DNA from: a virus
Reading direction: 5' to 3' (one strand)
IMG/VR virus record: IMGVR_UViG_3300012931_000009
Location: 1 to 40,319 of that record
DNA: 40,319 bases
Shown here piece by piece: positions 4,580 through 38,306 of this stretch. Position 1 is the stretch's first letter, and each line of letters opens with the position of its first letter. The notes below the pieces were generated by a model. The model was given only the letters and a program-made list of their open reading frames with translations. It was not told the DNA's origin and ran no database searches. Position numbers and translations under genes: made by a program.

Positions 4580-5713
4580 TTATTCTCCTAAATAGGCGTA
4601 CCATTTATCGCCAATCTTATCAAAAATAGCACCATTAATATTCTTGGTATCTTGCGTGCCAGGACGTAATTTTTTAGTTGGTTTCATTGGTTTTTTCATT
4701 TCATTAGAAATAGCGTTACTTGGGCCATAAATATTTTTCGATTCAGGATTAACATTATAACTACTTCCTGCATTCATGGCTTTTTTAGCGTTTTTTTCAG
4801 CAATGTCCAAATCTTCTAAAAATTTATCTCGACGCTGTGTAAAAGATTTCCATGTATCATTAGGCCTTAATTCAAGCATTTCCATATGCTTTTCATAGCC
4901 TTCTTTAGAATTAGTTGTTGGAAAAACTTTTTGAGCCAATACGCCTAGTCTGCTTTTTTCAGTCTCAAAATTATTCCATCTTCCTGCAAGATCAGGATCT
5001 TCACTTAATATTTTACTAATGGGTTTAGCTCCTATTCTTTCTGAAATGGCAGAAGCACCCGATCTAAATCTATTTAAAGCAGAACCTTTAGGAGTCGTGA
5101 ACTCATATCCTTGATCAAAATAAGCTGGAATCATTTCTTTTAAATTAGCAATAGAGTTAGCTGTTGTTTGAGCATCTGATACAGTTCCCATTGCAGGAGT
5201 CGTAAGAGCCTCTCCTCCTACATTAGAAGTAATTCCTGGAGGATTTAATTGTTGATGCGTAGCAGCTAATGCTTTTTGAGCAGCAGATTGTTGTATATTT
5301 CCATGCGGTAATCCAGGCTCTTGTGAATCGTTTCCAATAGTAGACGGATTATTTCCTACTCCTCCGCCTCCACCTGTAGATCCTAAGTTTGATGTATTAG
5401 TAGATCCCACACCACCAGTCATTCCCCCTGAAATACCTCCAGAAGAAATACCGCCATTTTGAGATAGCAATTGTTGAATAGCATTCATAATGCCTTGGCC
5501 TTGATCTCCCATCATAGCCATTGCAACAGGATTTGAGGCAATTCTAGCAAGAGGCTCAAATTCTTTGCTAAAAATATTTGCCTGTGTTGTTTGTGGCGCA
5601 TATCTTGCTGATACAGCAGACTGATAATTTCTTAAAGCATTAGATATAAGATTAGCATAAGGGCTAACTTGCTCTGGTGTTCCAGGTTGATATTGCAGGA
5701 CTGGGATAGGCAT
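4580..5713 (-). CDS. Internal virion / DNA-ejection protein candidate (377 aa)
   Basis: 377 residues starting MPIPVLQYQPGTPEQVSPYA, with AGGAGA upstream. The first 75 residues (NLISNALRNYQSAVSARYAP...FSKEFEPLARIASNPVA) look helical. A low-complexity Gly/Ser/Asn segment around residues 90-130 (GGISSGGISGGMTGGVG) follows, then a Lys-rich helical C-terminal half. A flexible glycine linker between helical parts fits a protein that must unfold during ejection. It is separated from the 472-residue gene by only one base, so the two are co-translated. Role inferred from P22-like gene order. Confidence 0.6.
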   Translation of the reverse strand: MPIPVLQYQPGTPEQVSPYANLISNALRNYQSAVSARYAPQTTQANIFSKEFEPLARIASNPVAMAMMGDQGQGIMNAIQQLLSQNGGISSGGISGGMTGGVGSTNTSNLGSTGGGGGVGNNPSTIGNDSQEPGLPHGNIQQSAAQKALAATHQQLNPPGITSNVGGEALTTPAMGTVSDAQTTANSIANLKEMIPAYFDQGYEFTTPKGSALNRFRSGASAISERIGAKPISKILSEDPDLAGRWNNFETEKSRLGVLAQKVFPTTNSKEGYEKHMEMLELRPNDTWKSFTQRRDKFLEDLDIAEKNAKKAMNAGSSYNVNPESKNIYGPSNAISNEMKKPMKPTKKLRPGTQDTKNINGAIFDKIGDKWYAYLGE

Positions 5714-6597: not shown

Positions 6598-6980
6598 AAT
6601 ATCCACCATCCTGCTGTCGATACATTAGGAGGAGTTGATGCATCATATGTAATAGAGAACACATTAGCTGCTCTATTCGTTGAATCAAAGACCATAGCGC
6701 CGCTTATATCAGGCAAGAATAGCTGAGTACCCCCTGACTGGTTCTGAGGCAATGGCGAGCCTATATATGGCGCATAAAGAGCTGCGATAGAAGCCATCTC
6801 AGAAGCCGTTAGCAAAGGCAGTCGTAACCCTTCATTACTAAAGTTCTTCTGTAACCCTTGAAACAACGAACTAAATGCCAGCATCCAAGGCTGCGTAAAA
6901 TTACCCAACTTATCCACAGAATGAGTATCTCGTGGAATATCAGGAAATATCGCTTGTGGTATACTGGTTTGTGTCGTCAT
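6594..6980 (-). CDS. Small tail-region structural protein
   Basis: 128 residues from MTTQTSIPQAIFPDIP. I chose the internal ATG at 6980 because it overlaps the stop of the gp10-like gene as ATGA; the longer open frame to 7031 lies inside that gene. The C-terminal part (GAMVFDSTNRAANVFSITYD...TAGWWIL) resembles short β-structured phage tail accessory proteins. It is coupled at both ends. Probably a tail or needle accessory protein by position. Confidence 0.6.
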   Translation of the reverse strand: MTTQTSIPQAIFPDIPRDTHSVDKLGNFTQPWMLAFSSLFQGLQKNFSNEGLRLPLLTASEMASIAALYAPYIGSPLPQNQSGGTQLFLPDISGAMVFDSTNRAANVFSITYDASTPPNVSTAGWWIL

Positions 6981-27492: not shown

Positions 27493-28191
27493 CTAATATC
27501 TTGGTTGATTATCATAACGCCTAACTTGCCCTTTTTGATCTTCATAAACTCGTTTAGGCTTTTCTCTGTTTAAAAACTTTTCAAAAGTAAGCTGCCAATC
27601 ATCTGATTTTGTCTCATACTCTTTTGAAACCTTGGCAAATTTATCAAGTAAATAGACTTCAGTGTTATTAGTTTTTTTGGCAACTATAGATAATAACTCA
27701 CGCCGTTTATCATCTGGAAAAAAATCATCTGGGTATAGGTATAAATCAACAGAGCTCTCTTTTTTTATTTCTTTATTTAACTTCTTTATATTATGTCTCG
27801 CTAAGTCGAGACCCTGCCTCTCGCTAAGTCGAGACCCTCCTCTCGCTAAGTCGAGACCCTGAGAGTTTTTTGAACTATCATCTTTAGAGTTATCCCCAGC
27901 TTTATTTTCTATCTCAATTTTCTGTTCTGGTTGAACAAGATACCGCTTTACTCCTTTGTAAACTCTTTTTAACTCGTTATGTTTTTCAAAGAATGTAAAA
28001 GCATCATTCAAGGTTGAATCTGATTTTATTCCCGCTCTTTCCATGATGACGTTGTTTTTTAAATAACATTGCTTCCCATGGTTCCAAAACTGAAAAATTG
28101 TTTCATAAACTCTCAAATAGGATAATTGAAGATCAGGGAGCTCTAAAATTCTGGATGGAACGATAAAAAAAGCGGATTTGTATTCTGACAT
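27493..28191 (-). CDS. Replication initiator-like protein with embedded iterons
   Basis: 232 residues from MSEYKSAFFIVPSRILELPD; the ATG at 28191 has AAAGGA upstream, unlike the longer frame from 28290. The first 110 residues form a winged-helix domain (SYLRVYETIFQFWNHGKQCY, IMERAGIKSDSTLNDAFTFF, NELKRVYKGVKRYLV) like phage and plasmid replication initiators. A variable linker (residues 120-155) is encoded by three 20-bp iterons. A helical C-terminal part ends with a basic tail. By analogy with λ O, it would bind the iterons and melt the nearby AT-rich tract. The λ O analogy rests on arrangement, not on sequence identity. Confidence 0.6.
   Translation of the reverse strand: MSEYKSAFFIVPSRILELPDLQLSYLRVYETIFQFWNHGKQCYLKNNVIMERAGIKSDSTLNDAFTFFEKHNELKRVYKGVKRYLVQPEQKIEIENKAGDNSKDDSSKNSQGLDLARGGSRLSERQGLDLARHNIKKLNKEIKKESSVDLYLYPDDFFPDDKRRELLSIVAKKTNNTEVYLLDKFAKVSKEYETKSDDWQLTFEKFLNREKPKRVYEDQKGQVRRYDNQPRY
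27759..27860. repeat. Putative origin: three iterons and AT-rich tract
   Basis: TCTCGCTAAGTCGAGACCCT occurs exactly three times at 27796-27815, 27819-27838 and 27841-27860, separated by 3 and 2 bases. Each unit has an inner dyad TCTCG-N6-CGAGA. Directly left (27759-27795) is a pyrimidine-rich, AT-rich 37-base tract. Iterons next to an AT-rich tract inside the initiator gene is the λ ori plan. Confidence 0.75.
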
Positions 28192-28239
28192 ACTAAAATT
28201 CCTTTCATGTGGGGGGTTGACCAGATCCATGGGCAACGT

Positions 28240-28274
28240 ATAATAGGCGTTGCACGTGTTGGTTCTGGAGAACC
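28240..28274 (-). promoter_or_regulatory. Leftward early promoter region with a palindromic operator
   Basis: On the minus strand a -10 TATTAT (28240-28245) lies about 50 bases before the initiator start. The -35 is poor, and GGTTCT-GG-AGAACC (28261-28274), a perfect 6+6 dyad, covers that position. A regulator bound there could repress or activate. Confidence 0.5.
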
Positions 28275-28285
28275 GTATTGTTAAG

Positions 28286-28312
28286 TGCACCCTGTCTAGT
28301 AAACGGGGTGCA
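28286..28312. other. Hairpin in the divergent early control region
   Basis: TGCACCC / GGGTGCA forms a 7-bp stem with a 13-base loop. It lies beside the GGTTCT dyad in the 307-base region between divergent genes (28192-28498). The rest of that region holds only the repeats and promoter elements noted separately. Confidence 0.45.
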
Positions 28313-28397
28313 TGTCGTAAAACCCCTCCATCTTACTCTATTCTCACCCCGAAACAACAGCCCTTCTAAACTCTTTATTTACATAAAAAATACACAA

Positions 28398-28433
28398 ACG
28401 CCGATGACGCCGATTGCGCCGAACACGCCGAAA
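28398..28433. repeat. Four tandem 9-bp repeats (RCGCCGANN)
   Basis: ACGCCGATG, ACGCCGATT, GCGCCGAAC and ACGCCGAAA run head to tail without spacers. They lie 65 bases before the rightward RHH gene and beside a TATAAT at 28449-28454. They look like a cluster of binding sites on nearly one face of the helix, or a second iteron set. Confidence 0.6.
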
Positions 28434-28498
28434 TAATTTGCCAAAAAATATAATTCTGTTATTGTGTGCAAACTATAACTAAAATGTGACTTCATACC

Positions 28499-28684
28499 AT
28501 GACTGACAAAATTAAAAGTAACAATGATGTGCGTATAATTACAGATGTTACAAAAGAGTGCAGAAAATCACTGCGTATACTAGCTATACAAAAAGATACA
28601 ACTTTGCCATTAATAGTCAAAGATATACTTGAACGCGCGATGAGTAAAAAAGTTAATAATGTACAAGAGGTAAATGGTGAGTGA
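28499..28684 (+). CDS. RHH-type small regulator (61 aa)
   Basis: 61 residues: MTDKIKSNNDVRIITDVTKE, then helices CRKSLRILAIQKDTTLPLIV and KDILERAMSKK. A strand followed by two helices (KSLRILAIQKD...LPLIVKDILE) fits the CopG/Arc ribbon-helix-helix fold. No clear RBS precedes it, so translation may start on a short leader. It begins the rightward cluster opposite the initiator operon and could control the divergent region. Confidence 0.6.
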   Translation: MTDKIKSNNDVRIITDVTKECRKSLRILAIQKDTTLPLIVKDILERAMSKKVNNVQEVNGE

Positions 28685-28898
28685 CATCATCAAAAGAAAA
28701 ATCTATTTTATAAAAGACGTAGAAAAAATAATAGGTAGAAATAGGCTTACATTAAGAAGATGGTGGAACAAAGATCTTTTTCCAAAGCCTACGTTAATAA
28801 ATAATCAATTAGCATGGTCGGCTTCCACTATAAATGAATGGATAAGTGATAATTTTAAAGATGATTACGAAAATTTTGTCTCGTCTGATTATGACTAG
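28674..28898 (+). CDS. AlpA-like HTH regulator (74 aa)
   Basis: 74 residues. KRKIYFIKDVEKIIGRNRLT and LRRWWNKDLFPKPTLINNQL form a winged HTH of the AlpA/excisionase type, ending with an acidic tail. It overlaps the RHH gene by 11 bases and has AAGAGG upstream. The wing resembles the HTH protein at 26532, so the two are likely paralogous. Candidate excisionase or regulator of integrase. Confidence 0.65.
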   Translation: MVSDIIKRKIYFIKDVEKIIGRNRLTLRRWWNKDLFPKPTLINNQLAWSASTINEWISDNFKDDYENFVSSDYD

Positions 28899-28922
28899 AA
28901 ATTGATAAGTTGAGTAATAAAA

Positions 28923-29018
28923 ATGAGTGAAATAACTAACTGGCCTCAAGCTTTCGCTATAGTAGGCGTTGCGGTATGCATTGCGGCAGTTTTTATTGCT
29001 ATATGTATTAATAGGTAA
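28923..29018 (+). CDS. Tiny membrane protein (31 aa)
   Basis: 31 residues, mostly one membrane helix (AFAIVGVAVCIAAVFIAICI). RBS is weak. It lies two bases before the next small membrane gene. Possible roles are superinfection exclusion or membrane modulation; none is shown. Confidence 0.45.
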   Translation: MSEITNWPQAFAIVGVAVCIAAVFIAICINR

Positions 29019-29020
29019 TC

Positions 29021-29197
29021 ATGATTAAAAAACTACTATACTATATACTTATATGGAGCATTGTGTATGTTCCTATTTATTTCGTTTATGAATATAGAGA
29101 TAAAATAAATTCATTTATATATTCATTTGTATTTGCTTTTCTTTGGTCATGGTTTGTGTGGGATATTGATAAGATAATAAAACAGTTTAGATCGTAA
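29021..29197 (+). CDS. Small membrane protein (58 aa)
   Basis: 58 residues with two hydrophobic segments: LLYYILIWSIVYVPIYFVYE and FIYSFVFAFLWSWFVWDI, joined by a charged loop. Very aromatic. It overlaps the 3' end of the converging ATP-grasp gene by 11 bases. Possibly an exclusion protein expressed from the rightward regulator cluster; inferred from topology only. Confidence 0.5.
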   Translation: MIKKLLYYILIWSIVYVPIYFVYEYRDKINSFIYSFVFAFLWSWFVWDIDKIIKQFRS

Positions 29198-30071
29198 ACC
29201 ATTCAATAATAGTATCATATATAGCATTCCCTTCAATCTCATCCTCAACACCACCATCAATAGACGGATTATCATTGATCTCAATGACATAAGCGCTCCC
29301 ACTAGATTCTTTAAGGTCAATACCATATAACCCGTCTGTGAGCAGTCTATTGCATTTTTCTGCTTCTGCCAATACATGCAATGGTATATCTTCAAACTTA
29401 ACACATTCGTGTTTACCATCAATATAATCGCCCTTACGGTCGTATTTAATGATCTTCCAATCATCATTGACCATATAGTATTTAACAACAAATAGGAATT
29501 TATGGTTAAACAGGACAATTCGCCAGTCAAAGTCAGTCTGTATGAATTCTTGGCATATAAGATCTTTATGTTTTTGTCCGCCATAAAACCATAGGTTATG
29601 AAGTGTATCAGCGAGTTCTATTTTATTATGGCATTTAAAGACCCCTTGAGAGAAACATGAATCAGGTATCTTAACAACACAAGGGTAAGGCAAATCATCA
29701 ATTTTAGAAGCGTCCCAACGTATTTTCCATGTTTTCGGATGAGATATGTTGTGTTTATAAAACAACTCCTCTTGCCAAATCTTATTACACCCCTGCTGGA
29801 TAGACATAGGACTATCTATAACCTTTAAACCTAACGCAGATGCCGCTATAGCGAATTCATATGTATAATTGCTTGGGTGAGTAGTATCCCTAATGAAAAG
29901 ACCATCAAAGTCAGACAATAGATCAATATCGTTTTGTTTAAGAATAGTGGGGTATATTTTATGGCGTATTGCTGACTCGCAAAAACGATCAATAGCAGCA
30001 TTATTAGAGGGGGAATACTTAGCAGTCTCATCATAGAGTATTGCAAGTTTAAGCCAGTCATCCTTTGGCAT
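29187..30071 (-). CDS. RimK-like ATP-grasp ligase
   Basis: 294 residues. The fold is recognisable from VVKIPDSCFSQGVF (132-145, nucleotide-binding loop), LICQEFIQTDFDWRIVLFN (171-189), YGIDLKE (249-255) and the metal-binding VIEINDNPSID (262-272). ATP-grasp enzymes join a carboxylate to an amine through an acyl-phosphate. The RimK branch adds amino acids or peptides to proteins or small molecules. The ending EINDNPSIDGGVEDE is closest to RimK-like proteins that carry an extra N-terminal domain. The gene overlaps the GNAT gene by 14 bases. Substrate unknown. Confidence 0.85.
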   Translation of the reverse strand: MPKDDWLKLAILYDETAKYSPSNNAAIDRFCESAIRHKIYPTILKQNDIDLLSDFDGLFIRDTTHPSNYTYEFAIAASALGLKVIDSPMSIQQGCNKIWQEELFYKHNISHPKTWKIRWDASKIDDLPYPCVVKIPDSCFSQGVFKCHNKIELADTLHNLWFYGGQKHKDLICQEFIQTDFDWRIVLFNHKFLFVVKYYMVNDDWKIIKYDRKGDYIDGKHECVKFEDIPLHVLAEAEKCNRLLTDGLYGIDLKESSGSAYVIEINDNPSIDGGVEDEIEGNAIYDTIIEWFTI

Positions 30072-30498
30072 TTTGGTTTAAATCCTTTCTCATTAAAATA
30101 GCAGACTTACCATCTTTATAGTAATTATGCTTTATTCCATAGGGTTTGTAACCATGTTTTGTATAGAAATTTATGGCTTTATTATTGCCTTTTTTGACTT
30201 CAAGTTTAATGGTATCTTTATTTAGAATAGTACATACAAAATCCTCTGCGCGTTCAAGTAAAATGCTACCTATACCATCATTAGAAGGATAGGCAGCTAT
30301 AGAATAAATGCGCCCTGTAGATAAGACATATACATAGCCTTTTAGAAAGCCTGATTCTTCGTAAATTCTAAAATAGTTATTATTGTTTATAATAGCGTAT
30401 GAAAATTGATTGCGACTAAATCTGTGACTAGGATTGAATGATTTACTTTCGATAATTAATAATTCTGGAATGTCTTTAAGAGTAGCTGTTCTAATCAT
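30058..30498 (-). CDS. GNAT acetyltransferase (RimI-like)
   Basis: 146 residues from MIRTATLKDIPELLIIESKS, the usual GNAT opening. I chose the ATG at 30498, which overlaps the stop of the small upstream ORF as TAATG. The acetyl-CoA loop is SNDGIGSILLERAE, and motif B is LEVKKGNNKAINFYTKHGY, ending YYKDGKSAILMRKDL. It would acetylate an amine, often the N-terminus of a protein or peptide. The direct overlap with an ATP-grasp gene suggests both enzymes act on one target. Confidence 0.83.
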   Translation of the reverse strand: MIRTATLKDIPELLIIESKSFNPSHRFSRNQFSYAIINNNNYFRIYEESGFLKGYVYVLSTGRIYSIAAYPSNDGIGSILLERAEDFVCTILNKDTIKLEVKKGNNKAINFYTKHGYKPYGIKHNYYKDGKSAILMRKDLNQNAKG

Positions 30499-30626
30499 TA
30501 TAACAAATCCCAGTCCTTTAAAACAAAAGTAAACACACAGCTCGATATAAACCATTCATAATCAGACCAATGAGCAAAGTGTGATACTAATAAACAACAC
30601 ATTGAGGATATTAGCCAATATCTCAT
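30498..30626 (-). CDS. Small coupled ORF (42 aa)
   Basis: 42 residues: MRYWLISSMCCLLVSHFAHW, then DYEWFISSCVFTFVLKDW. Its start overlaps the stop of the DUF551-like gene (ATGA) and its stop overlaps the GNAT start (TAATG). It is hydrophobic and aromatic, perhaps membrane associated. It could be a substrate peptide for the two enzymes or just a coupling ORF. Confidence 0.45.
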   Translation of the reverse strand: MRYWLISSMCCLLVSHFAHWSDYEWFISSCVFTFVLKDWDLL

Positions 30627-30919
30627 TTAGGTGCTCCAGGAATAGGCATCCAATACTTAACCTCTTGTAAAGTAAGTTTGCATCTGGCAGAGAAATATTT
30701 TTTACCATTTTTAAGACATACTAAATGGCCAGTATAATAAAAAATATGAGCCATATTATCCCATCGATAGTCAACCAGTAATAAAACTTCCTCTCCCTTA
30801 ATAGGAAGTTTTAAATTAGTGCTTATCCAAGTATTTGTTAATGCAGAGTTAAGTAGTTCCTTAAGTTCTTCATAATGAGATAAAGGTATAATAATTGACG
30901 GATCAATAATTTTATTCAT
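30623..30919 (-). CDS. DUF551 family protein (98 aa)
   Basis: 98 residues. WISTNLKLPIKGEEVLLLVD and VKYWMPIPGAPK are the two ends of the DUF551 signature (WIsv...LPxxgxxVLv...hWMPlPxxP). An N-terminal helix of about 35 residues precedes it. DUF551 proteins are very common in gammaproteobacterial phages, but no function is known. The start overlaps the next DUF551 gene's stop as ATGA. Confidence 0.8.
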   Translation of the reverse strand: MNKIIDPSIIIPLSHYEELKELLNSALTNTWISTNLKLPIKGEEVLLLVDYRWDNMAHIFYYTGHLVCLKNGKKYFSARCKLTLQEVKYWMPIPGAPK

Positions 30920-31185
30920 TTAGGAACCTCTGGAAATGGCATCCAATAATAAATATCTAATGAAGTTTCTATTCCTCCTATTTCACACCATTCAAGCATA
31001 GAGCTATAGAATCCAGGTATTACTTCTGTGCAATCAGTTATAAGCACCAATTCATTAATAATTGGCAATTCATCCTTAACGCTAATCCACTTGTCTCTGT
31101 AATAACAATCTTGACAAATATGGCCATTAATATGAAACCAAGGCGTTGATTCTTTTTCACATAATTTACAGACTTCCATGCTCAT
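30916..31185 (-). CDS. DUF551 family protein with zinc-binding N-terminus (89 aa)
   Basis: 89 residues. Cys pairs CKLC and CQDC flank a short loop (6-27), which looks like a zinc finger. Then WISVKDELPIINELVLITDC and DIYYWMPFPEVPK give the DUF551 signature. It is tandem with the 98-residue paralogue, arranged as a coupled pair. Function unknown. Confidence 0.8.
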   Translation of the reverse strand: MSMEVCKLCEKESTPWFHINGHICQDCYYRDKWISVKDELPIINELVLITDCTEVIPGFYSSMLEWCEIGGIETSLDIYYWMPFPEVPK

Positions 31186-31186
31186 A

Positions 31187-31279
31187 TTAAATTCCTATTA
31201 AATACCAAACAATAATGACAATAAAAGCAATGCAAAAACATCCTAATATAAAACATGAGAACTTTTCATTGTTGTCCAT
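31187..31279 (-). CDS. Tiny membrane protein (30 aa)
   Basis: 30 residues with one membrane helix (FILGCFCIAFIVIIVWYLIG). AGGAATC is nine bases before the ATG and the stop is one base from the next start. Real translation is likely from spacing; the role is unknown. Confidence 0.45.
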   Translation of the reverse strand: MDNNEKFSCFILGCFCIAFIVIIVWYLIGI

Positions 31280-31294
31280 AACGTAGATTCCTAT

Positions 31295-31897
31295 TTATAT
31301 AAAACTCAGCGCTTGTGAAGTTATTTTCTTTAATCTCTCTGGATTGTCTTGTACGTATAGCGCAGTCATCTGTATGCTAGCATGACCCATGAGAGTGGAT
31401 ACTGCTTTTATATCAACGCCTTTTTCAATTAAGTTAGTCGCAAAGGTGCGTCTGCCGGAATGGGAGCTAGCTCTCTCAATCCCCGCCTCTTTATAAAGAA
31501 ACGAAAACCTTTTTGACAATGTTTTATTTGAAAAATGATCATTCTTTTGTGATAAAAATAAGGGTTGTTTAGGATGATAAAACTTCCTTCTTTCAATAGC
31601 TATTTGTTGACGTTCGTTAATGTATTCTTCAATAGCCTTTCTTATTTTTGGCTCTGTGAGATAGGCTTCTCTTGGCTCATCTCCTTTTGTCTTAGTAAGA
31701 TATAAAACATCCTTTACTTTGCCTTGATCATTTATAACCTGGTGTATTTTTAAAGCAGCCAATTCAATAGCTCGTAAACCAAGACCGAATGACATAAGAA
31801 CTAATAAAGTATCGCGCTTAGCAAACGGAGAAGCTGCCGTGACTGCAAGTAATCGTTTAAATTCTGATGCTGTTAAAACTGCGGCTTGTTTTGGCAT
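31295..31897 (-). CDS. int: Tyrosine recombinase / integrase (minimal catalytic type)
   Basis: 200 residues with the full active site: Arg42 (GLGLRAIELAAL), Lys69 or Lys71 (TKTKGDEP), His146 and Arg149 (SSHSGRRTFA), His172 (MGHAS) and Tyr181 (ALYVQ). The N-terminal arm- and core-binding domains of λ Int are missing; the size is that of FimB/FimE-like enzymes. RBS AGGAG. It would integrate the phage at a host att site, so the phage is temperate. No attP core is identified. Confidence 0.87.
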   Translation of the reverse strand: MPKQAAVLTASEFKRLLAVTAASPFAKRDTLLVLMSFGLGLRAIELAALKIHQVINDQGKVKDVLYLTKTKGDEPREAYLTEPKIRKAIEEYINERQQIAIERRKFYHPKQPLFLSQKNDHFSNKTLSKRFSFLYKEAGIERASSHSGRRTFATNLIEKGVDIKAVSTLMGHASIQMTALYVQDNPERLKKITSQALSFI

Positions 31898-31951
31898 ATT
31901 TTTACGCTCCTAATAATGTATTTTTGTTTTATAATATTATGGAAGTTCGGC

Positions 31952-31957
31952 ATTATA
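31952..31957 (-). promoter_or_regulatory. Integrase promoter -10 candidate
   Basis: TATAAT on the minus strand, about 55 bases before the integrase start, in an AT-rich stretch with no gene (31898-32038). The -35 is weak (TTTATT). ATAATATTAT at 31931-31940 is a nearby palindrome that could bind a regulator. Confidence 0.5.
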
Positions 31958-32038
31958 GACTATTTAAAAAATAAATAAAATTAAATAAAAATAAAATATA
32001 TTATTTTTCAATGAATATCTACTACTGGGTCTAATTCG

Positions 32039-32185
32039 TCATTTCTCTAGTTCTCTCAAAATTCTATCAAGCTTAGCTATCCTTTTATCTAAATACTCTA
32101 TTTCTTTCCGAGATAACAATAGAGATATTCCAAAAAGAATGAGCGCAAGTGAGCATAAAATAATTGCGACTGTATTGTATATCAT
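32039..32185 (-). CDS. Small membrane-anchored coiled coil (48 aa)
   Basis: 48 residues: a membrane helix (VAIILCSLALILFGISLLLS) then a charged coiled coil (RKEIEYLDKRIAKLDRILRE). The start overlaps the upstream stop as ATGA. Topology resembles small lysis regulators or exclusion peptides. Function unknown. Confidence 0.55.
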   Translation of the reverse strand: MIYNTVAIILCSLALILFGISLLLSRKEIEYLDKRIAKLDRILRELEK

Positions 32186-32406
32186 TTATAAAAATCCTCT
32201 CTCATTTGTCTTTTTTGTTCATCTGTAAATTGTGAAAACCATTTTTTAAATTTATTATTACGAGGAGTGCACAATATCCCAGTTGGATCATTTTTAGTTT
32301 CAGGATATAAAGTTAACATTTCTTCTGCTGCTTTAAGATCATTCCATCTTTTATTATTTATTTTTTTAAATGTTTTCTTACATTTTTCACAAGTAAATTC
32401 GCTCAT
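32182..32406 (-). CDS. Small zinc-finger-like phage protein (74 aa)
   Basis: 74 residues: FTCEKCKKTFKKINNKRWND, then a helix (AAEEMLTLYPETKND), a Cys (GILCTP) and an Arg/Lys/Glu-rich end. It resembles a group of short phage proteins of the form FTCexCxxtFxK...AxxEaxxxfp. Coupled by ATGA on both sides. Function unknown. Confidence 0.6.
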   Translation of the reverse strand: MSEFTCEKCKKTFKKINNKRWNDLKAAEEMLTLYPETKNDPTGILCTPRNNKFKKWFSQFTDEQKRQMREDFYK

Positions 32407-32597
32407 TCATACCCCTTAATTAATCCAGCCTTCAAAAGCTCTATACAAACACACATTTCCATCCTTTCCAAAGCTGGATTTCCTTTTCTGTCAGGCTGAC
32501 CAAAACTATCAAATGTCATTTTACTAATACCAGGGAAGTGCTTTTCTAATATATCTATGAATTCCTGTGATATTATTTTTACTATTTCAGGTATCAT
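32403..32597 (-). CDS. Hypothetical protein (64 aa)
   Basis: 64 residues: MIPEIVKIISQEFIDILEKH, DSFGQPDRKGNPALERMEMC, then a short helix. Coupled to both neighbours by ATGA overlaps. Mostly helical. Not recognised. Confidence 0.55.
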   Translation of the reverse strand: MIPEIVKIISQEFIDILEKHFPGISKMTFDSFGQPDRKGNPALERMEMCVCIELLKAGLIKGYE

Positions 32598-32848
32598 TTA
32601 TTAATCTCCTTACAACCACATTGATCTAAAAATGTTTTTAATAGTGTGCTTTCACTCAACTTTGACCCAATATTATCTTGATCCTCATAAAGATCCCTAG
32701 AAAATAAAGTGATATGAATAGCTGCTGCTGCAAAATGTTTTAACAGAGGTTCTTTATCTTTTGGAAAAATATTTTTAGCTAATTTAATACGATCATTTAT
32801 TTCTAAAAGCAATACAGAGATTGCTTCGTAATCTATTTTTTTATTCAT
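32594..32848 (-). CDS. Hypothetical helical protein (84 aa)
   Basis: 84 residues, helical (YEAISVLLLEINDRIKLAKN, LLKHFAAAAIHITLFSRDL), ending in a short Cys pair (CGC). It overlaps its neighbours at both ends. The pattern of a helical bundle with Ala-rich centre resembles the 94-residue protein two genes upstream. Not recognised. Confidence 0.55.
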   Translation of the reverse strand: MNKKIDYEAISVLLLEINDRIKLAKNIFPKDKEPLLKHFAAAAIHITLFSRDLYEDQDNIGSKLSESTLLKTFLDQCGCKEINK

Positions 32849-33341
32849 TTTTCATCAATCCATTCTCAATTAAATATATTAACATCTTAGCCATCGCATT
32901 AGCTAAATTAGGATCATAAGTATTTTTAGTTAGCTTTCTTGATAACCAAGCATTTTCACCTGTTATCTCTGTAGTATCACATTCATAATTTATAATATAA
33001 CAATTAATAGTTTCTTTATTGATGTCTGGAACATAATAAAACTTTCTAATTACTAATGTATAGCTATCGAATGGCTCTTTATTAGTTATAGAAACTCTAT
33101 TTGGTAATAGCTCACCCAGCTCTGCGACTGTGAAGGCTGATGCCGCTAAATTTCTGTTAAACAAATCATTTAATAACCATGTATCTGATGGGCCACTCAT
33201 ATCACCTACCGTTTTCTTAGGATGAAATAAAGTCCATTCTAATGCAAAGTTACACCAATAAAAATAACTACTTTGCTTAACCTCAAGCTCTTTTAATCGC
33301 TTCGCTAATTCTAATGAGCATACTTGTTTTTCTAGTTCCAT
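32841..33341 (-). CDS. Hypothetical protein (166 aa)
   Basis: 166 residues. Conserved-looking parts are VCSLELAKRLKELEVKQSSY, PSDTWLLNDLFNRNLAASAF and FTVAELGELLPNRV. The run LAKRLKELGVKQxSxFYW...TAAELGELLP is familiar from unnamed phage and prophage proteins. Start overlaps the upstream stop as TAATG. Function unknown. Confidence 0.65.
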   Translation of the reverse strand: MELEKQVCSLELAKRLKELEVKQSSYFYWCNFALEWTLFHPKKTVGDMSGPSDTWLLNDLFNRNLAASAFTVAELGELLPNRVSITNKEPFDSYTLVIRKFYYVPDINKETINCYIINYECDTTEITGENAWLSRKLTKNTYDPNLANAMAKMLIYLIENGLMKNE

Positions 33342-33625
33342 TAATTATCCTTAATGCCTTTTAAATATTCTCTAGTTGCTGATTCAATCAAAATATAAAT
33401 AGTTGTCCTATCCATTTTTTTAATACCGTGTGTTTTGCTAAAGGCTTCTAATATAGAGCAAATAGTTGCTGTTAATATGCTAATAGTGTGTATAACTAAA
33501 TAGATATTTTCAGCAGGATCATCTTCACACTGATATTTTAAAACTTCTTCTTTGACTAATTGCATAATTTTATATGCAATCTCATTAGCATGTTCTAAAG
33601 TTTTTGATTTGTCAGCCACAATCAT
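33341..33625 (-). CDS. Hypothetical helical protein (94 aa)
   Basis: 94 residues: MIVADKSKTLEHANEIAYKI, then IYLVIHTISILTATICSILE and helices to the end. A moderately hydrophobic central helix might touch membrane but is interrupted by polar residues. Coupled to the next gene. Not recognised. Confidence 0.55.
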   Translation of the reverse strand: MIVADKSKTLEHANEIAYKIMQLVKEEVLKYQCEDDPAENIYLVIHTISILTATICSILEAFSKTHGIKKMDRTTIYILIESATREYLKGIKDN

Positions 33626-33628
33626 ATT

Positions 33629-33691
33629 TCAATCCCAATAAAAATTAATAAAATATATTAAAAGAATAGCTATTATTAGGCCGAAGTGCAT
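33629..33691 (-). CDS. 20-residue hydrophobic peptide ORF
   Basis: MHFGLIIAILLIYFINFYWD, a single membrane helix overlapping the end of the upstream gene by 16 bases. The RBS (GAGAAA) is weak. It is included because several similar tiny membrane ORFs occur in this operon. Confidence 0.3.
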   Translation of the reverse strand: MHFGLIIAILLIYFINFYWD

Positions 33692-34269
33692 GATATTTTC
33701 TCTATAAGTTGATCTATTAAACTTTTACATTCATTGATAACATATTCTTTTGTTCTAGGATATTCTCTCCATTCATAATCAGGAGAATTTTTTCTATTAA
33801 GATATCCTGGATAATTACGCTCCATGTCAGCAGCAACTTCTTGTTTAATCTTTTGAACCTCAATAATTCCTCTAAATATGTTTTTATTATCTTTAAAATA
33901 TTCTTTTGCCTTTTCTAAATCACAAAAATCACCTGCATGACCGCAATCAAATCCTAACCACTTATCTTTGCAAGCATCTTCACCAAAAAATAATTTTGAA
34001 AAATGATTTTTATCATAAAAAGTAATGCCTCCATGAACATCATAATCTGGATAATCTTTTTTGTGATTATTAGCGACATGACTAAGCGGCAACGCAACAT
34101 AACCACATCGAAATCCCATATCATTAAATGTCACAAGGAAATCAAAACCTTTATAATGTCCGCCATCTTCAATAACTACACCAATGCAATCATTAGAATT
34201 TTTCTTGGACGGGACTGACAAATATTCTTTATTGCCTTTTAAATCTAAAATCTTTGGTATACAAGACAT
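33676..34269 (-). CDS. Conserved phage protein with HGGITF / GFDCGHAGD motifs
   Basis: 197 residues. MGFRCGYVALPLSH, then DYDVHGGITFYD and WLGFDCGHAGDFCD are the fixed points of a widespread phage protein family that I know only as uncharacterised. His/Asp/Cys in these motifs could bind metal. The C-terminal helix (YVINECKSLIDQLIEKI) also fits the family. It is the first gene after the XRE repressor and may be expressed in the lysogen or early. Confidence 0.7.
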   Translation of the reverse strand: MSCIPKILDLKGNKEYLSVPSKKNSNDCIGVVIEDGGHYKGFDFLVTFNDMGFRCGYVALPLSHVANNHKKDYPDYDVHGGITFYDKNHFSKLFFGEDACKDKWLGFDCGHAGDFCDLEKAKEYFKDNKNIFRGIIEVQKIKQEVAADMERNYPGYLNRKNSPDYEWREYPRTKEYVINECKSLIDQLIEKISCTSA

Positions 34270-34280
34270 ATTAATTTTCC

Positions 34281-34502
34281 TTAGTTATCAATATCTGACT
34301 CTTTAACATTCATGCCAGCTTTCTCATTAGCAATTTTTATTATTTTATGTCGAACAAGTAAGCCAGGCTTTCTTAAACCTCTCTCATAAAGCGAGATACT
34401 TTGTTGATCAATTTTAGTCCATTCCGACAAAACACTTTGCGTGATACCGCATTTTATTCGTATCTTTTTTATCAAATCTTTACATAACATACTTGTCTCC
34501 AT
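34281..34502 (-). CDS. XRE-family repressor-like protein (73 aa)
   Basis: 73 residues from METSMLCKDLIKKIRIKCGI. I chose the ATG at 34502 (CGGGAG seven bases upstream) over the longer frame from 34628, which would cross the promoter. CGITQSVLSEWTKIDQQSIS and LYERGLRKPGLLVRHKIIKI form a Cro/C1-type HTH. There is no cleavable C-terminal domain, so it is a Cro-like or P2 C-like regulator. It faces the rightward recombination operon. Confidence 0.75.
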   Translation of the reverse strand: METSMLCKDLIKKIRIKCGITQSVLSEWTKIDQQSISLYERGLRKPGLLVRHKIIKIANEKAGMNVKESDIDN

Positions 34503-34547
34503 AAAAAACTCCCGTTTAATACATATAATTATGAAACCTTTAGAGAG

Positions 34548-34576
34548 ATAATACCTAAATAAAATATTTTTGTAAA
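34548..34576 (-). promoter_or_regulatory. Leftward promoter for the XRE gene
   Basis: On the minus strand TTTACA (34571-34576), 17 bases and TATTAT (34548-34553). It is back to back with the rightward promoter; the two -35 boxes are only four bases apart. Confidence 0.6.
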
Positions 34577-34580
34577 TATG

Positions 34581-34609
34581 TTGTTTTATTTGTTCTAACG
34601 TAGTATTAT
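34581..34609 (+). promoter_or_regulatory. Rightward promoter for the recombination operon
   Basis: TTGTTT (34581-34586), 17 bases and TATTAT (34604-34609). The start codon at 34622 is only 13 bases from the -10, so the message would be almost leaderless. Confidence 0.5.
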
Positions 34610-34621
34610 GTTTTCTGTGGA

Positions 34622-34876
34622 ATGACAAGAAAGGAAGAATTGAATAGATTTTGGCCTAAAGGGGTGCAACCCAATAGGCCGATACATACTAAAACCCGAG
34701 TAAGGTATTATTATATGAACGATAGCAGTTTAATGTATTTTATTATTACAATGCAATACCCACCGTTAATGATTAACGGAAAAGAAATGAAAGACAATGA
34801 TGTTTTCTGTCCAATGTGTAATGATTGGCACGAAAACAATACATTATGTCAGATGTCCATGGAAGGGGGTCTATAA
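34622..34876 (+). CDS. Hypothetical protein with Cys pairs (84 aa)
   Basis: 84 residues: MTRKEELNRFWPKGVQPNRP, a central hydrophobic part (SLMYFIITMQYPPLMINGKE) and FCPMCNDWHENNTLC, which may bind zinc through Cys and His. It is the first gene of the rightward operon controlled by the divergent promoter. The stop overlaps the next start as TAATG. Not recognised. Confidence 0.6.
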   Translation: MTRKEELNRFWPKGVQPNRPIHTKTRVRYYYMNDSSLMYFIITMQYPPLMINGKEMKDNDVFCPMCNDWHENNTLCQMSMEGGL

Positions 34877-35253
34877 TGAACAGCTCTACTCATATCAAAA
34901 AATTCATATCTTCATTAGTTAGTAATTATGCTGAATACAACAAAATAGATGGTTTTTACATCGTTGATCTTATAAAACTGCCTGAATCAGAACTTGAGGA
35001 ATTTTCCTCTCTTATCATGAACCATGATTTATCATGGGCATCAGAGGCAACGAGCTTAGACAATCCAGCTTATCAAGAATCAATGTTACCCGCACTTAAT
35101 CATTATTTAACAAATCCTACCAAAGATAACGAAATTGAATATTTAAAATCTTGGCGCACTGGCGTTTCTAGCTATTTTAAAAAAGCCTTTGCAGAAATGA
35201 TGTTTGATGAATTGGAATATTTTAATAAGGAGCATGGAATATGGGCAGCATAA
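34876..35253 (+). CDS. Hypothetical protein (125 aa)
   Basis: 125 residues from MNSSTHIKKFISSLVSNYAE, with GGAAGGGGG upstream; a start at 34825 would overlap the previous gene more and lacks an RBS. Mostly helical and acidic (DLIKLPESELEEFSSLIMNH). It lies between the first gene and the exonuclease and is probably linked to recombination or early takeover. Not recognised. Confidence 0.6.
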   Translation: MNSSTHIKKFISSLVSNYAEYNKIDGFYIVDLIKLPESELEEFSSLIMNHDLSWASEATSLDNPAYQESMLPALNHYLTNPTKDNEIEYLKSWRTGVSSYFKKAFAEMMFDELEYFNKEHGIWAA

Positions 35254-35330
35254 AGAAGTTGGAGACTTTGTTTTGGGTAACAATGTTATTGGTATCTATT
35301 TATTACAGCTTAATTTTAATTACTAACTAG
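35241..35330 (+). CDS. Tiny membrane protein (29 aa)
   Basis: 29 residues with one membrane helix (LFWVTMLLVSIYYSLILI). A strong RBS (AAGGAG) is eight bases before the ATG, inside the end of the upstream gene. Translation is likely; role unknown. Confidence 0.5.
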   Translation: MGSIKKLETLFWVTMLLVSIYYSLILITN

Positions 35331-35339
35331 GGGTGCACC

Positions 35340-36149
35340 ATGAAAACATATAATCCAGGAATTTATGAAATCGAAAATGAAGATTATCACAATTCGGAAG
35401 GTTTGAGCAGATCAGCTTTATTAACTTTTAAAAAATCTCCGCTGCATTATTGGAGCGCATATAAAAGACAGGATGTTAAATCAGAAGAAGATACGGCAGC
35501 ATTAATATTAGGAAACGCTGTTCATGCTTATATACTTCAGCCAGAAAAGTTTAATCAATATTATCATGTAGTCGATAAACCAGATTGTCGCACTTCAAAA
35601 GGGAAAGAGGAATGGGCACATATTAATGCAGTTCATGGACATAAAATTATATTACCTACTAAAGTTTTTAATGAAGTAGAAAATATGGGAAAAGCATTCA
35701 TGACGCATCATTTAGCCAGCAGATTTATTGAAGGTGCGCAAACAGAAAAATCTATATTTTGGAAAGATCATGTAACAGGAATATTATGTAAAACACGCCC
35801 TGATATTTGGCTTCCTAATATTATAGCCGATATTAAAACAACCACTGATGCATCTGAACGATCATTTCAAAGAGACATGGCTAAGTATGGTTATCATATA
35901 CAAGCTGCTATGGTTCAAGATGGCATTTATCACGCTACTAATAAGTGGATTGAAACATTTGTATTTATTGCTATAGAAAAAGACGATCCTTATGCCATAG
36001 GAATTTATGAACTTGATAATGATTCAATTGAAAAAGGACGTGAAGAGTATAAGCAGCTATTAAGTGATTATCAGCCATATAAAGATGAAAATATTAAAGT
36101 ATGGCCTAGCTATAAACCAACCGTTGTTTCATTACCAGCATACTATTAG
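35340..36149 (+). CDS. Exodeoxyribonuclease VIII / RecE-like PD-(D/E)XK nuclease
   Basis: 269 residues. YHNSEGLSRSALLTFKKSPL and ALILGNAVHAYILQPEKF open the domain. The active site is RPDIWLPNIIADIKTT, with Asp and Asp-x-Lys, and YGYHIQAAMVQDGI is motif QxxxY-like. It matches the DUF3799/RecE-like exonucleases of phages. It resects double-stranded ends 5' to 3' and hands single strands to the annealase encoded next. RBS AGGGG. Confidence 0.87.
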   Translation: MKTYNPGIYEIENEDYHNSEGLSRSALLTFKKSPLHYWSAYKRQDVKSEEDTAALILGNAVHAYILQPEKFNQYYHVVDKPDCRTSKGKEEWAHINAVHGHKIILPTKVFNEVENMGKAFMTHHLASRFIEGAQTEKSIFWKDHVTGILCKTRPDIWLPNIIADIKTTTDASERSFQRDMAKYGYHIQAAMVQDGIYHATNKWIETFVFIAIEKDDPYAIGIYELDNDSIEKGREEYKQLLSDYQPYKDENIKVWPSYKPTVVSLPAYY

Positions 36150-36160
36150 GACTATAAATC

Positions 36161-37030
36161 ATGAATAATTTAGCAATCTTAGAAAGCAAACAGTTAAGTA
36201 TTTGGGAAGGGCAAGAAAATTTAAAACAAATTAGATGCATTTTTGCACCTAAATTAACTGACCTTGAATTTACGGTATTCGTTGAAATGGGTAAAGCCAC
36301 GGGGCTTAACCCTTTCTTAAAGGAAATTTGGGCGGTTAAATACGATGAAAAAAGCCCTGCTCAAATATTTATTGGACGAGATGGTTATAGAAAAAGCGCA
36401 CAACGAAGTCCTTTTTATGATTATCATTCTGTTGATTCTGTTTATAGCAATGATGAATTTTATGTCGTAGATGGCGAAATAAAACATAAATATAATCTAG
36501 CTAATCGAGGAAATTTAATAGGTGCTTATTGCATTGCTAAGCGTAAGACATCATCAAGACCCTGTTATGTCTATGTTTCAGAAAATGAATACAATAAAAA
36601 ATTTAGTGTTTGGAAAGATAAGCCAGCGACAATGATTAAGAAAGTAGCAGAAGCACAATGTTTAAAAATGGCATTTCAGGAATTATTCTCAGGTTCTTAC
36701 AGCGAATATGAGGACTGGGATAATTCAAAAAATCAAACCATGGATGTTGAAGCGCATATAAAATCAAAATTAGTAGATATTGAACAGAATAAATCAATCG
36801 ATGCTGATTTTAATGAAGTTACAGGTGAAATTATTACTGAGGAAATGTCTATAAATGAACCTGAAAAATTTAACGGATTTAGTTTTGAATCTATAAAATT
36901 AAAAATAGAGACTGCTAAAAATGTCCAAGAACTCATTGAAGCTATAGATTTGGTTAATTCTTTGGCTAAAATGGAAGATAAAAAGGAATTAATGAAAATA
37001 TATAGAGCAAGACAAGAAGAATTGAAATAA
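36161..37030 (+). CDS. RecT/Bet-family single-strand annealing protein
   Basis: 289 residues. LTDLEFTVFVEMGKATGLNP, FLKEIWAVKY, IFIGRDGYRKSAQRSPFYDY and KPATMIKKVAEAQCLKMAFQ are the usual blocks of the RecT/Bet family. The C-terminal 90 residues are acidic and variable, as expected. It coats single-stranded DNA and anneals homologous strands. It forms a pair with the upstream exonuclease (11-base gap, AGGA). The pair supports replication-linked recombination and genome circularisation. Confidence 0.88.
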   Translation: MNNLAILESKQLSIWEGQENLKQIRCIFAPKLTDLEFTVFVEMGKATGLNPFLKEIWAVKYDEKSPAQIFIGRDGYRKSAQRSPFYDYHSVDSVYSNDEFYVVDGEIKHKYNLANRGNLIGAYCIAKRKTSSRPCYVYVSENEYNKKFSVWKDKPATMIKKVAEAQCLKMAFQELFSGSYSEYEDWDNSKNQTMDVEAHIKSKLVDIEQNKSIDADFNEVTGEIITEEMSINEPEKFNGFSFESIKLKIETAKNVQELIEAIDLVNSLAKMEDKKELMKIYRARQEELK

Positions 37031-37049
37031 AATAATATTCATAATGGTC

Positions 37050-37085
37050 GCACTAACAGAAAGAGGGATGGCTTCCTGTTAGTGC
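37050..37085 (+). other. 10-bp hairpin after the annealase gene
   Basis: GCACTAACAG / CTGTTAGTGC, a perfect 10-bp stem with a 16-base loop, 20 bases after the annealase stop. No U-tract follows, so it is more likely an mRNA stability or processing element than a terminator. Confidence 0.65.
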
Positions 37086-37115
37086 TAATCAAAACTTTAT
37101 CTGTGGGATAAAATA

Positions 37116-37328
37116 ATGACTTGCACTAGATTAAACGAAATACAAGATTTTATAAATAAAATAGATTTTAAATTGATGCAATTACAAGCTATTGTTAAGG
37201 TTGCAAGAGAGGATAGTTTTTTTAATCTATCTAAATCCGTGCTAGCACCTTATTTATCTATTATCGAAGAAAAAGTTTTAGAAATAGTCGAATTAAATGA
37301 TAGAATATTCGATAGTTTAGAATATTAA
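37116..37328 (+). CDS. Small helical protein (70 aa)
   Basis: 70 residues: MTCTRLNEIQDFINKIDFKL, then LYx-free helices (SKSVLAPYLSIIEEKVLEIV). GGGA lies nine bases upstream. It is followed directly by the structured RNA region. Predicted α-helical hairpin; not recognised. Confidence 0.55.
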   Translation: MTCTRLNEIQDFINKIDFKLMQLQAIVKVAREDSFFNLSKSVLAPYLSIIEEKVLEIVELNDRIFDSLEY

Positions 37329-37335
37329 AGGTTTA

Positions 37336-37765
37336 TGTCTCCTGAGATCGCCGGCAAAATAGATCGAGCCAATTGCATATAGTTGATGCTTCAATGTTGC
37401 GCAGACCCTTGGAGCTATAGACTAGAACAAAATAGGATGTAGGGAGACGCCAGTTATGCGGGTCTCGAAAGAGAATAATGGCGATAGTTTTCCTAGGTAA
37501 AGCTATCTAACCAAACGTCAGCTTGATTGCTGTGACCCGCTCCGATTTTATGGCCGACGATACTGGAGTTTGCGATCGTACAATCGTGATAAAAGTCTTT
37601 AACCAGACTCTAAAACTACGAAGGGAAAATAGGCCACCATTTTGCTGAGGTCGGAAAAATGGTTTATGGCAATTGCGGCGTGGACAGTGACACGCAAGGC
37701 AAACGATTACCCGACTAGCTGGGTCAAGACATTAAAATGCAGCTTGAAAAGATATAATGGAGACA
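37336..37765 (+). ncRNA. Candidate large structured RNA (about 430 nt)
   Basis: A gene-free stretch between two rightward genes (37329-37836). GC is about 45% (163 of 360 bases in 37381-37740), far above its flanks. TGTCTCC (37336-37342) pairs with GGAGACA (37759-37765) and closes the region. Inside are local stems: 37444-37448/37462-37466; 37483-37491/37499-37507 (9 bp); 37594-37598/37605-37609; 37636-37643/37656-37663 (8 bp); 37678-37682/37691-37695 (5 bp); 37709-37712/37721-37724. All frames contain stops. It does not show RNase P, tmRNA or tRNA consensus elements. It resembles in size the large phage RNAs (GOLLD/ROOL class), but no class can be assigned by eye. Confidence 0.6.
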
Positions 37766-37836
37766 ATTGACATTCAACATTATACGCCTATAGCCAGTGC
37801 AACTCTGGACAATTGCCATCACTTTAAGGAGTTATT

Positions 37837-38127
37837 ATGTCAAAGGTATTTGTAAATAAATTAAGCGATCATGGATTTCCCTATCATGCAAAGAATTATA
37901 AAACAGCTCATGAAGAAGCGTCCAAAGCAGAGAAGAAAAAATATCCGAAAGGTTACGAAGTATTGAAAAAAGAAGAACGTCACTTAGGTAAAGATGAACT
38001 AATGGGCAAGAACACAAAATCAGGCAAAATAGAAGTCGAAAAAAAGTTTAAATCTCATGGAAAAGAAATAGAATATCATGAGAAAATGGAGCATAAAAAT
38101 ATTAAAAGGCTAGATAAAAGAAAATGA
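37837..38127 (+). CDS. Lysine-rich hypothetical protein (96 aa)
   Basis: 96 residues, about one quarter Lys, with many Glu and His (KNYKTAHEEASKAEKKKYPK, EKKFKSHGKEIEYHEKMEHK). AAGGAG lies before the ATG. It follows the structured RNA and is coupled to the Lar-like gene by ATGA. Such composition suits RNA or DNA binding, perhaps of the adjoining RNA, but that is conjecture. Confidence 0.65.
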   Translation: MSKVFVNKLSDHGFPYHAKNYKTAHEEASKAEKKKYPKGYEVLKKEERHLGKDELMGKNTKSGKIEVEKKFKSHGKEIEYHEKMEHKNIKRLDKRK

Positions 38128-38306
38128 ATATAAAATTATTGCCTTGTTACAAATGTGAAAAACAACCAGAAGTCGAAATACATGGGGTCAGTTACATTAT
38201 TATTTGCAATGATTGCAATATAAAAAGTAAAACTGCCCGCATGTATTTAGAACATGAGATTGATCAAATTTGCAATGAATGGAATGAAATTAATTCCTTA
38301 ACTTGA
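38124..38306 (+). CDS. Lar-like restriction alleviation / zinc-ribbon protein (60 aa)
   Basis: 60 residues: LLPCYKCEKQPEVEIHGVSY, IICNDCNIKSKTARM and a final NEWNEI. Two Cys pairs (PCxxC and CxxC) and the closing WN match the Lar family, whose Rac prophage member relieves type I restriction. The middle differs from the classical CGGxA text. Last gene of the rightward operon, it overlaps the converging adhesin gene by nine bases. Confidence 0.65.
   Translation: MNIKLLPCYKCEKQPEVEIHGVSYIIICNDCNIKSKTARMYLEHEIDQICNEWNEINSLT

Follow-up and report, generated by a model that had tools for sequence, protein, structure and literature searches.

A gene-free gap in a phage recombination operon as a likely tandem array of tRNA-like small RNAs

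What is encoded in the 508 bases that separate two small open reading frames (ORFs) in the early recombination operon of this phage? The gap (37329-37836) runs from the stop codon of a 70-aa ORF (37116-37328) to the ATG at 37837 of a 96-aa ORF, in a window of 40,319 nucleotides, by which is meant the whole stretch of viral DNA that was analysed. A sequence-only reading had described it as a gene-free region of raised GC content that holds one large structured RNA. The absence of genes was confirmed: the longest ORF within the gap encodes 42 aa, and the ORF list holds none of at least 60 aa. The raised GC content stands as well, at 0.435 versus 0.249 for the upstream ORF, 0.308 for recT and 0.306 for the downstream ORF, and the highest value among 508-nt stretches sampled in 28000-38300 (0.427) lies below that of the gap. 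Folded as RNA, the gap has a minimum free energy of −138 kcal/mol compared with −126.4 ± 5.7 kcal/mol for shuffled sequences (z −2.02; 2 of 100 shuffles were as good), and the minus strand gives a z of −1.08. The operon is laid out on the plus strand in the order exonuclease VIII-like gene, recT, small ORF, array, small ORF, Lar-like ORF.

35340-36149, plus strand: exonuclease VIII-like gene (PF12684, phrog_412)
36161-37030, plus strand: recT (PF03837)
37329-37836, plus strand: gene-free gap in the early recombination operon, filled by the proposed four-unit array

The Lar assignment of the 60-aa ORF two genes past the array (38124-38306) reflects a sub-threshold match to the restriction alleviation family PF14354 (23.2 bits, cut-off 28.6). 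Between recT and the ORF that follows it, a strong 10-bp inverted repeat (GCACTAACAG..CTGTTAGTGC, 37048-37083) occupies the short gap, without the leader and tail that mark the array units described below.

Anatomy of the gap

The gap probably consists of four tandem small RNAs that resemble tRNA, fold independently of one another, lie inside the early recombination operon, are released and act in trans. The identity of the third and fourth units (U3 and U4) as conserved structured RNAs is well supported, and that of the first two (U1 and U2) is less certain.

37337-37452, plus strand: U1 (probable), 116 nt; end helix GUCUCC/GGAGAC (37337-37342 with 37443-37448); tail GCCA
37458-37544, plus strand: U2 (probable), 87 nt; end helix GCGGGUC/GACCCGC (37458-37464 with 37534-37540); tail UCCG
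37552-37639, plus strand: U3, 88 nt; GGCC (37552-37555) with GGCC (37632-37635); tail ACCA
37556-37562 and 37625-37631, plus strand: 7x7 internal loop of U3, GACGAUA / GAAAAUA
37640-37667, plus strand: U3-U4 linker, a sequence feature with an imperfect hairpin ACCATTTTGC..GGAAAAATGGT (37636-37663) that would use the U3 tail
37668-37821, plus strand: U4; 8-bp acceptor GGCAAUUG/CAAUUGCC (37668-37675 with 37810-37817); tail AUCA
37678-37695, plus strand: U4 hairpin, GCGUG[GACAGUGA]CACGC, with the variable body after it
37793-37809, plus strand: U4 T-arm, GCCAG UGCAACU CUGGA
37822-37836, plus strand: ribosome-binding stretch CTTTAAGGAGTTATT of the next gene, a sequence feature that begins right behind U4

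The four units are consecutive, each is closed by its own acceptor-like end helix, and AT-rich linkers lie between them. Each starts with a G behind a (T)TTAT-type leader; U1 to U3 end in NCC(A/G) tails and U4 in a discriminator-like A. The array begins 8 nt past a stop codon, and the next ribosome-binding site lies within a few nucleotides of its end. The hairpin in the U3-U4 linker folds weakly alone (z +0.59), and stretches like it are also found behind U3 copies in two other loci (L064 and L046). Phage matches to 37633-37666 (Sodalis phiSG1, Flavobacterium tant8-1, Bifidobacterium BP742P1 and a faecal contig) were considered as relatives and set aside as hairpin, terminator-like or coding-like sequence.

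Covariation in the U3 and U4 families

Relatives were reached through a two-row RecT alignment, which led to 41 related loci. In one of these, L005, a sensitive comparison gave a single 23-nt match just behind recT, and this match is one arm of a two-part motif (ATGGCCGACGATA...GAAAATAGGCCAC) common to L005 and the window. The two-part U3 pattern matches in 38 IMG/VR stretches, nearly all of which continue into the same leader and tail. With close duplicates removed, 59 distinct copies of U3 and 19 of U4 were counted in 55 IMG/VR phage loci, where tandem arrangement is frequent.

In the folded U3 copies, a stem of 4 bp leads into a symmetric 7x7 loop (GACGAUA/GAAAAUA), behind which a further stem, starting with CU/GG, carries a variable tip. 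Over the two stems in 43 copies, covariation reaches 0.399 compared with 0.148 ± 0.018 for shuffled alignments, none of 500 of which scored as high, and slid versions reach 0.136 at most; the end helix is paired in 100% of cases, and the alignment has 73 double-change cells. Because many of these rows came from a pattern with GGCC on both sides, a separate test was run with the two middle stem positions left open on both strands. All 16 distinct copies recovered in this way are complementary (12 GGCC/GGCC, 3 GGGC/GCCC and 1 GGAC/GUCC), so that each of the four non-GGCC forms is compensatory, and one of the 16 (L103) had earlier been reached via U4, without the U3 pattern. Changes within the 7x7 loop are isosteric or pair-restoring (C.A to U.G or U-A; G.A to A.G or U-A). 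The variants GGCCUAU/AUAGGCC and GCCCUAU/AUAGGGC show that the U3 end helix, which has only four canonical pairs and an irregular loop, has a register of 7 bp and is thus as long as the acceptor stem of a tRNA. The leader is TTTAT and the majority tail is A (42/59), C (46/59), C (47/59), A (44/59), with the ending not CCA in every copy. Taken alone, the fold of the window copy is not better than that of shuffles (z −0.72); as a row of the U3 alignment it carries the family traits, namely the fixed loops and the covarying helices. No T-arm is seen in U3, and no known counterpart of U3 was found.

For U4, 18 copies were aligned whose selection used two short loops and took no account of pairing; one further locus (L104) was excluded, its T-loop match being evidently spurious. 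The 18 copies share an end helix of 8 bp, a hairpin whose loop reads GACAGUG(A/C), and a T-arm of 5 bp, with UGCAAYU as its loop, that is stacked directly on the end helix. Double-sided changes occur at 14 of the 18 pairs, with 31 double-change cells compared with 4.9 ± 1.9 in shuffled alignments, and covariation is 0.385 versus 0.124 ± 0.017. GACAGUG and UGCAA are fixed in all 18 copies: the hairpin loop GACAGUGA is invariant while the 5-bp T stem covaries. In three loci the end helix is wholly different and both loops are unchanged (L060, GGAAACAG/CUGUUUCC; L099, GAGACGCU/AGCGUCUC; L109, GGAACAAG/CUUGUUCC). The leader is the same as that of U3 (TTTAT), and an A follows the acceptor in 17 of 19 copies. 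The window copy, a row of this alignment, again has the fixed loops and covarying helices of its family.

U3 and U4 are thus structured RNAs that are conserved and modular, recur in many phages and in some cases lie beside tRNAs. Their likeness to tRNA lies in the end helix, which in U3 has the 7-bp register and an ACCA consensus tail and in U4 is an 8-bp acceptor followed by A, and, in U4, in the T-arm stacked on the acceptor; an anticodon arm is not recognisable in the units. U1 and U2 have one weakly similar relative each. That of U1 lies in the array of L063 (about 5285-5396), where the end helix reads GGUUGCC/GGCAGCC with compensatory changes; by sequence alone the two match at an nhmmer E of 0.026, and the U1 fold has a z of −1.86. 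U2 folds with a z of −3.13 and has a relative in L077 with a TTCCTAGGTAARSC core and a T-arm-like hairpin (E 0.058 by sequence alone). A generic scan for a TTAY-type leader, a perfect 7-bp helix and NCC, which is expected to match 0.1 times per shuffled 40 kb, has U2 as its sole match on both strands of the window, and its matches are about 23 times denser near arrays than elsewhere.

Distribution of the units and their relation to known families

The units alternate with short AT-rich spacers, and the spacers between directly adjacent units resemble ACCAGTTTAT or ACCATTTAT. Up to five U3-type copies, with unrelated tips, occur in one array (L060). True tRNAs or tRNA-like genes are present in some arrays (L055, L065, L080 and L081); in L055 a U3 copy lies a few nucleotides behind a predicted tRNA-Trp, and in L065 one lies behind a predicted tRNA. 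Some array phages have the terminase, the portal and several small genes in common with the window phage. The genes that flank the arrays vary between contigs: recT is on the array strand in the window and in L005/L078, and genes for a Sak4-like annealing protein and for SSB lie near arrays, on the same strand, in 12 contigs each. L002 (4986-6124), which by the gene downstream of the array is the nearest relative, has kin of this gene and of the window recT in another order, with no array separating them. The presence of both genes without the array makes the array look like an optional cassette.

Several further unit types were observed in these loci. A unit closed by GGCTCTC/GAGAGCC, with an NCCA tail and a common GCGCGAWAGTATG, occurs on the minus strands of L052 (7094-7207) and L077 (8762-8872) and has a weaker relative in L099. 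Two tRNA-like units with a canonical T loop have 8-bp acceptors near that of U4: one in L065 (minus strand, 494-573; GGCAATTG/CAATTGCC) and one in L080 (674-806; GGCAATCA/TGATTGCC), the latter with a tRNA-Leu-like D arm. A conserved unit with a possible pseudoknot (GAGCGTTTCCT..GTCTAGG..CCTGATGAGAG..CTCGAAA..GCGTAGAGTTCTCC..CTACGATGAGAACAC) is found on the minus strands of L052 (~6783-6940) and L065 (~665-815). Its letters resemble a hammerhead core, an identity that was rejected: it has no Rfam match, and one of the two copies is almost without stem I.

Outside these phage stretches, the searches gave no relatives. The whole 508-nt gap, compared by BLAST with phages and plasmids, returned only chance matches of 28-35 nt, and short U3 and U4 queries against cultured phages returned chance fragments and no copy. 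In 84,980 cellular genomes (257 Gb) the U3 pattern has seven matches, all without the leader and tail, which is about the number expected by chance for 21 bases and 31 gap lengths; therefore no host is named. Rfam 15 gave 0 matches at gathering scores in the whole window and 0 at E ≤ 10 in 37020-37900, and ARAGORN gave 0 tRNA or tmRNA genes in the window. No Rfam match to a unit copy was obtained at E ≤ 0.5 in nine array loci, the matches there being tRNA genes and subthreshold, unrelated families; in L109 all matches were likewise subthreshold and to unrelated families. Neither family was found in the open-access papers that were searched, a scope outside which most subscription journals and preprints lie.

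Processing, function and competing explanations

The array would be transcribed together with the early recombination operon. From established tRNA biology, host RNase P would be predicted to cut at the TTTAT/G border to give the 5' ends, and the 3' ends would arise by endonuclease cleavage and trimming as for tRNA, with CCA added where it is not encoded. A passage in PMC12710915 describes bacterial RNase P cleaving a non-tRNA substrate that has a 3' RCCA motif. Once freed, the units would build up as small stable RNAs with tRNA features (the acceptor end, and in U4 also the T-arm) and would act in trans as tRNA mimics whose hypervariable apical or body part sets specificity. Phage tRNAs are a documented means of counter-defence, as supplements and possibly as decoys (PMC13096335). 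As a tentative hypothesis, the function that we find most likely is to tie up or mislead those proteins of the host that work on tRNA, such as tRNA-cleaving anti-phage systems. A bolder and more doubtful version is that the arrays are an undescribed phage system, in which several tRNA-mimic families, each with a constant scaffold and a hypervariable tip, form a modular early decoy or guide kit against host tRNA-directed (anti-phage) proteins. Points against the trans-acting reading are the absence of a recognisable anticodon arm, the short canonical part of the U3 end helix, U3 tails other than CCA, the single weak relatives of U1 and U2, and the fold of the window U3 taken alone. An antisense role was considered and dropped; the best match of the unit bodies to the rest of the phage genome is 13 nt (E 0.04), which is not notable.

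The strongest rival is that the units punctuate the operon in cis, as processing or stability elements of the polycistronic early mRNA; they would be cleaved as tRNAs are and would thereby keep the flanking messages apart or protected, the released RNAs having no job of their own. This is a serious minority possibility. It accords with the intergenic position of the units on the coding strand, with the placement of the window array between a stop codon and a ribosome-binding site, and with the many U3 copies that are single and intergenic, such as that of L068 directly ahead of a ribosome-binding site. However, the invariant loops (GACGAUA/GAAAAUA, GACAGUGA and UGCAAUU) exceed the needs of a processing site, as many as five tandem copies with different apical parts would be redundant, and the flanking genes are not constant between contigs. 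The fixed 7x7 loop beneath a variable stem, together with the copies just upstream of a ribosome-binding site, could instead be read as the binding pocket of a riboswitch-like element controlling the next gene. This seems improbable for U3, given tandem copies in arrays far from start codons, differing downstream genes, a tRNA-like NCCA tail and leader, and no switching partner found. Decay of a former tRNA cluster would account for the T-arms, the acceptor-like helices and the tRNAs nearby, but ruined genes would not retain GACGAUA/GAAAAUA; the compensatory changes seen across many contigs, along with loops that are fixed yet unlike those of tRNA, show present-day selection and make decay very improbable.

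The single large RNA that the sequence-only reading had proposed, with GOLLD and ROOL as known RNAs of this size, has next to no probability as a member of that class. The gap has the size and the raised GC content for it, and the 7-bp complement is literally there (TGTCTCC at 37336, GGAGACA at 37759), but the helix does not hold as the closing helix of one molecule. GTCTCC (37337-37342) has a nearer partner in GGAGAC (37443-37448), and this local helix is the one that is kept, with compensatory changes, in the U1 relative of L063. The distal arm (37759-37765) lies within U4, in its variable body, and U4 is a unit apart, closed by an 8-bp end helix of its own; therefore the conservation is not that of a single RNA of 430 nt. 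Elsewhere the relatives are separate, reordered and multiplied units with end helices of their own, two of the four short tandem units recurring singly or in multiple copies. The repeat that had been pointed out is present in both places as letters (GACAATTGACAT and GACAATTGCCAT): of the two occurrences of GACAATTG, one belongs to the U4 acceptor as its 3' strand (CAATTGCC, 37810-37817), and the other is a similar stretch in the U4 variable body. Rfam covariance models and covariation among relatives had been proposed as checks. Rfam 15, which includes curated large-RNA families, gives no match, and the covariation is decisive for U3 and U4. The proposal that the recombination operon contains a region of structured non-coding RNA is upheld by the strong covariation in relatives; the region is a real, conserved RNA feature that had been misread as one large RNA.

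Of the known systems, GOLLD and ROOL, large structured non-coding RNAs of bacteria and their phages according to a passage in PMC12286853, are single large RNAs, whereas the window region is modular. Phage tRNA gene clusters resemble the arrays in their tandem RNA units, NCCA ends, short AT-rich spacers and occasional true tRNAs, and differ in that the array units have no recognisable anticodon arm and that ARAGORN is negative in the window. Bacterial Y RNA (YrlA) is a non-coding RNA with a tRNA-like module and shares this general idea with the array units; identity with it was rejected, as the gap matches no Rfam family at E ≤ 10. By anatomy, the closest known kind to U4 is the T4 species 1 RNA. 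The T4 species 1 and 2 RNAs (rnaC, 139 nt; rnaD, 119 nt) are, like array units, small phage RNAs beside tRNA genes, and their biological roles are listed as unknown (PMC3014915, PMC9697503, PMC12685909). In its sequence, rnaC has a T-arm (CCGGG UUCGAAU CCCGG) adjoining the 3' end and a long non-tRNA body, and the same combination is found in U4 within a phage tRNA-type array. There is no sequence kinship: at up to one mismatch, rnaC and rnaD contain no U3 5' loop, U4 hairpin-loop or U4 T-loop motif, and the matches that the short GAAAATA loop has in rnaC at one mismatch are not remarkable. T4 has one species 1 and one species 2 RNA in a real tRNA cluster, whereas the array units are tandem, belong to several families and lie mostly without tRNAs in recombination operons. 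The T4 RNAs are classed as late RNAs (PMC9697503).

U3 and U4 are new RNA families, and the kind to which they belong has a single precedent, old and unexplained. Their covariation is decisive, Rfam 15 lacks both, and they recur in tens of uncultured phages; they supply covariation models and numerous copies for RNAs of the T4 species 1 and 2 kind, which have no assigned role. If the units do act as tRNA mimics against host proteins, they would add an RNA-based arm to an arms race around tRNA that has so far been described with real tRNAs.
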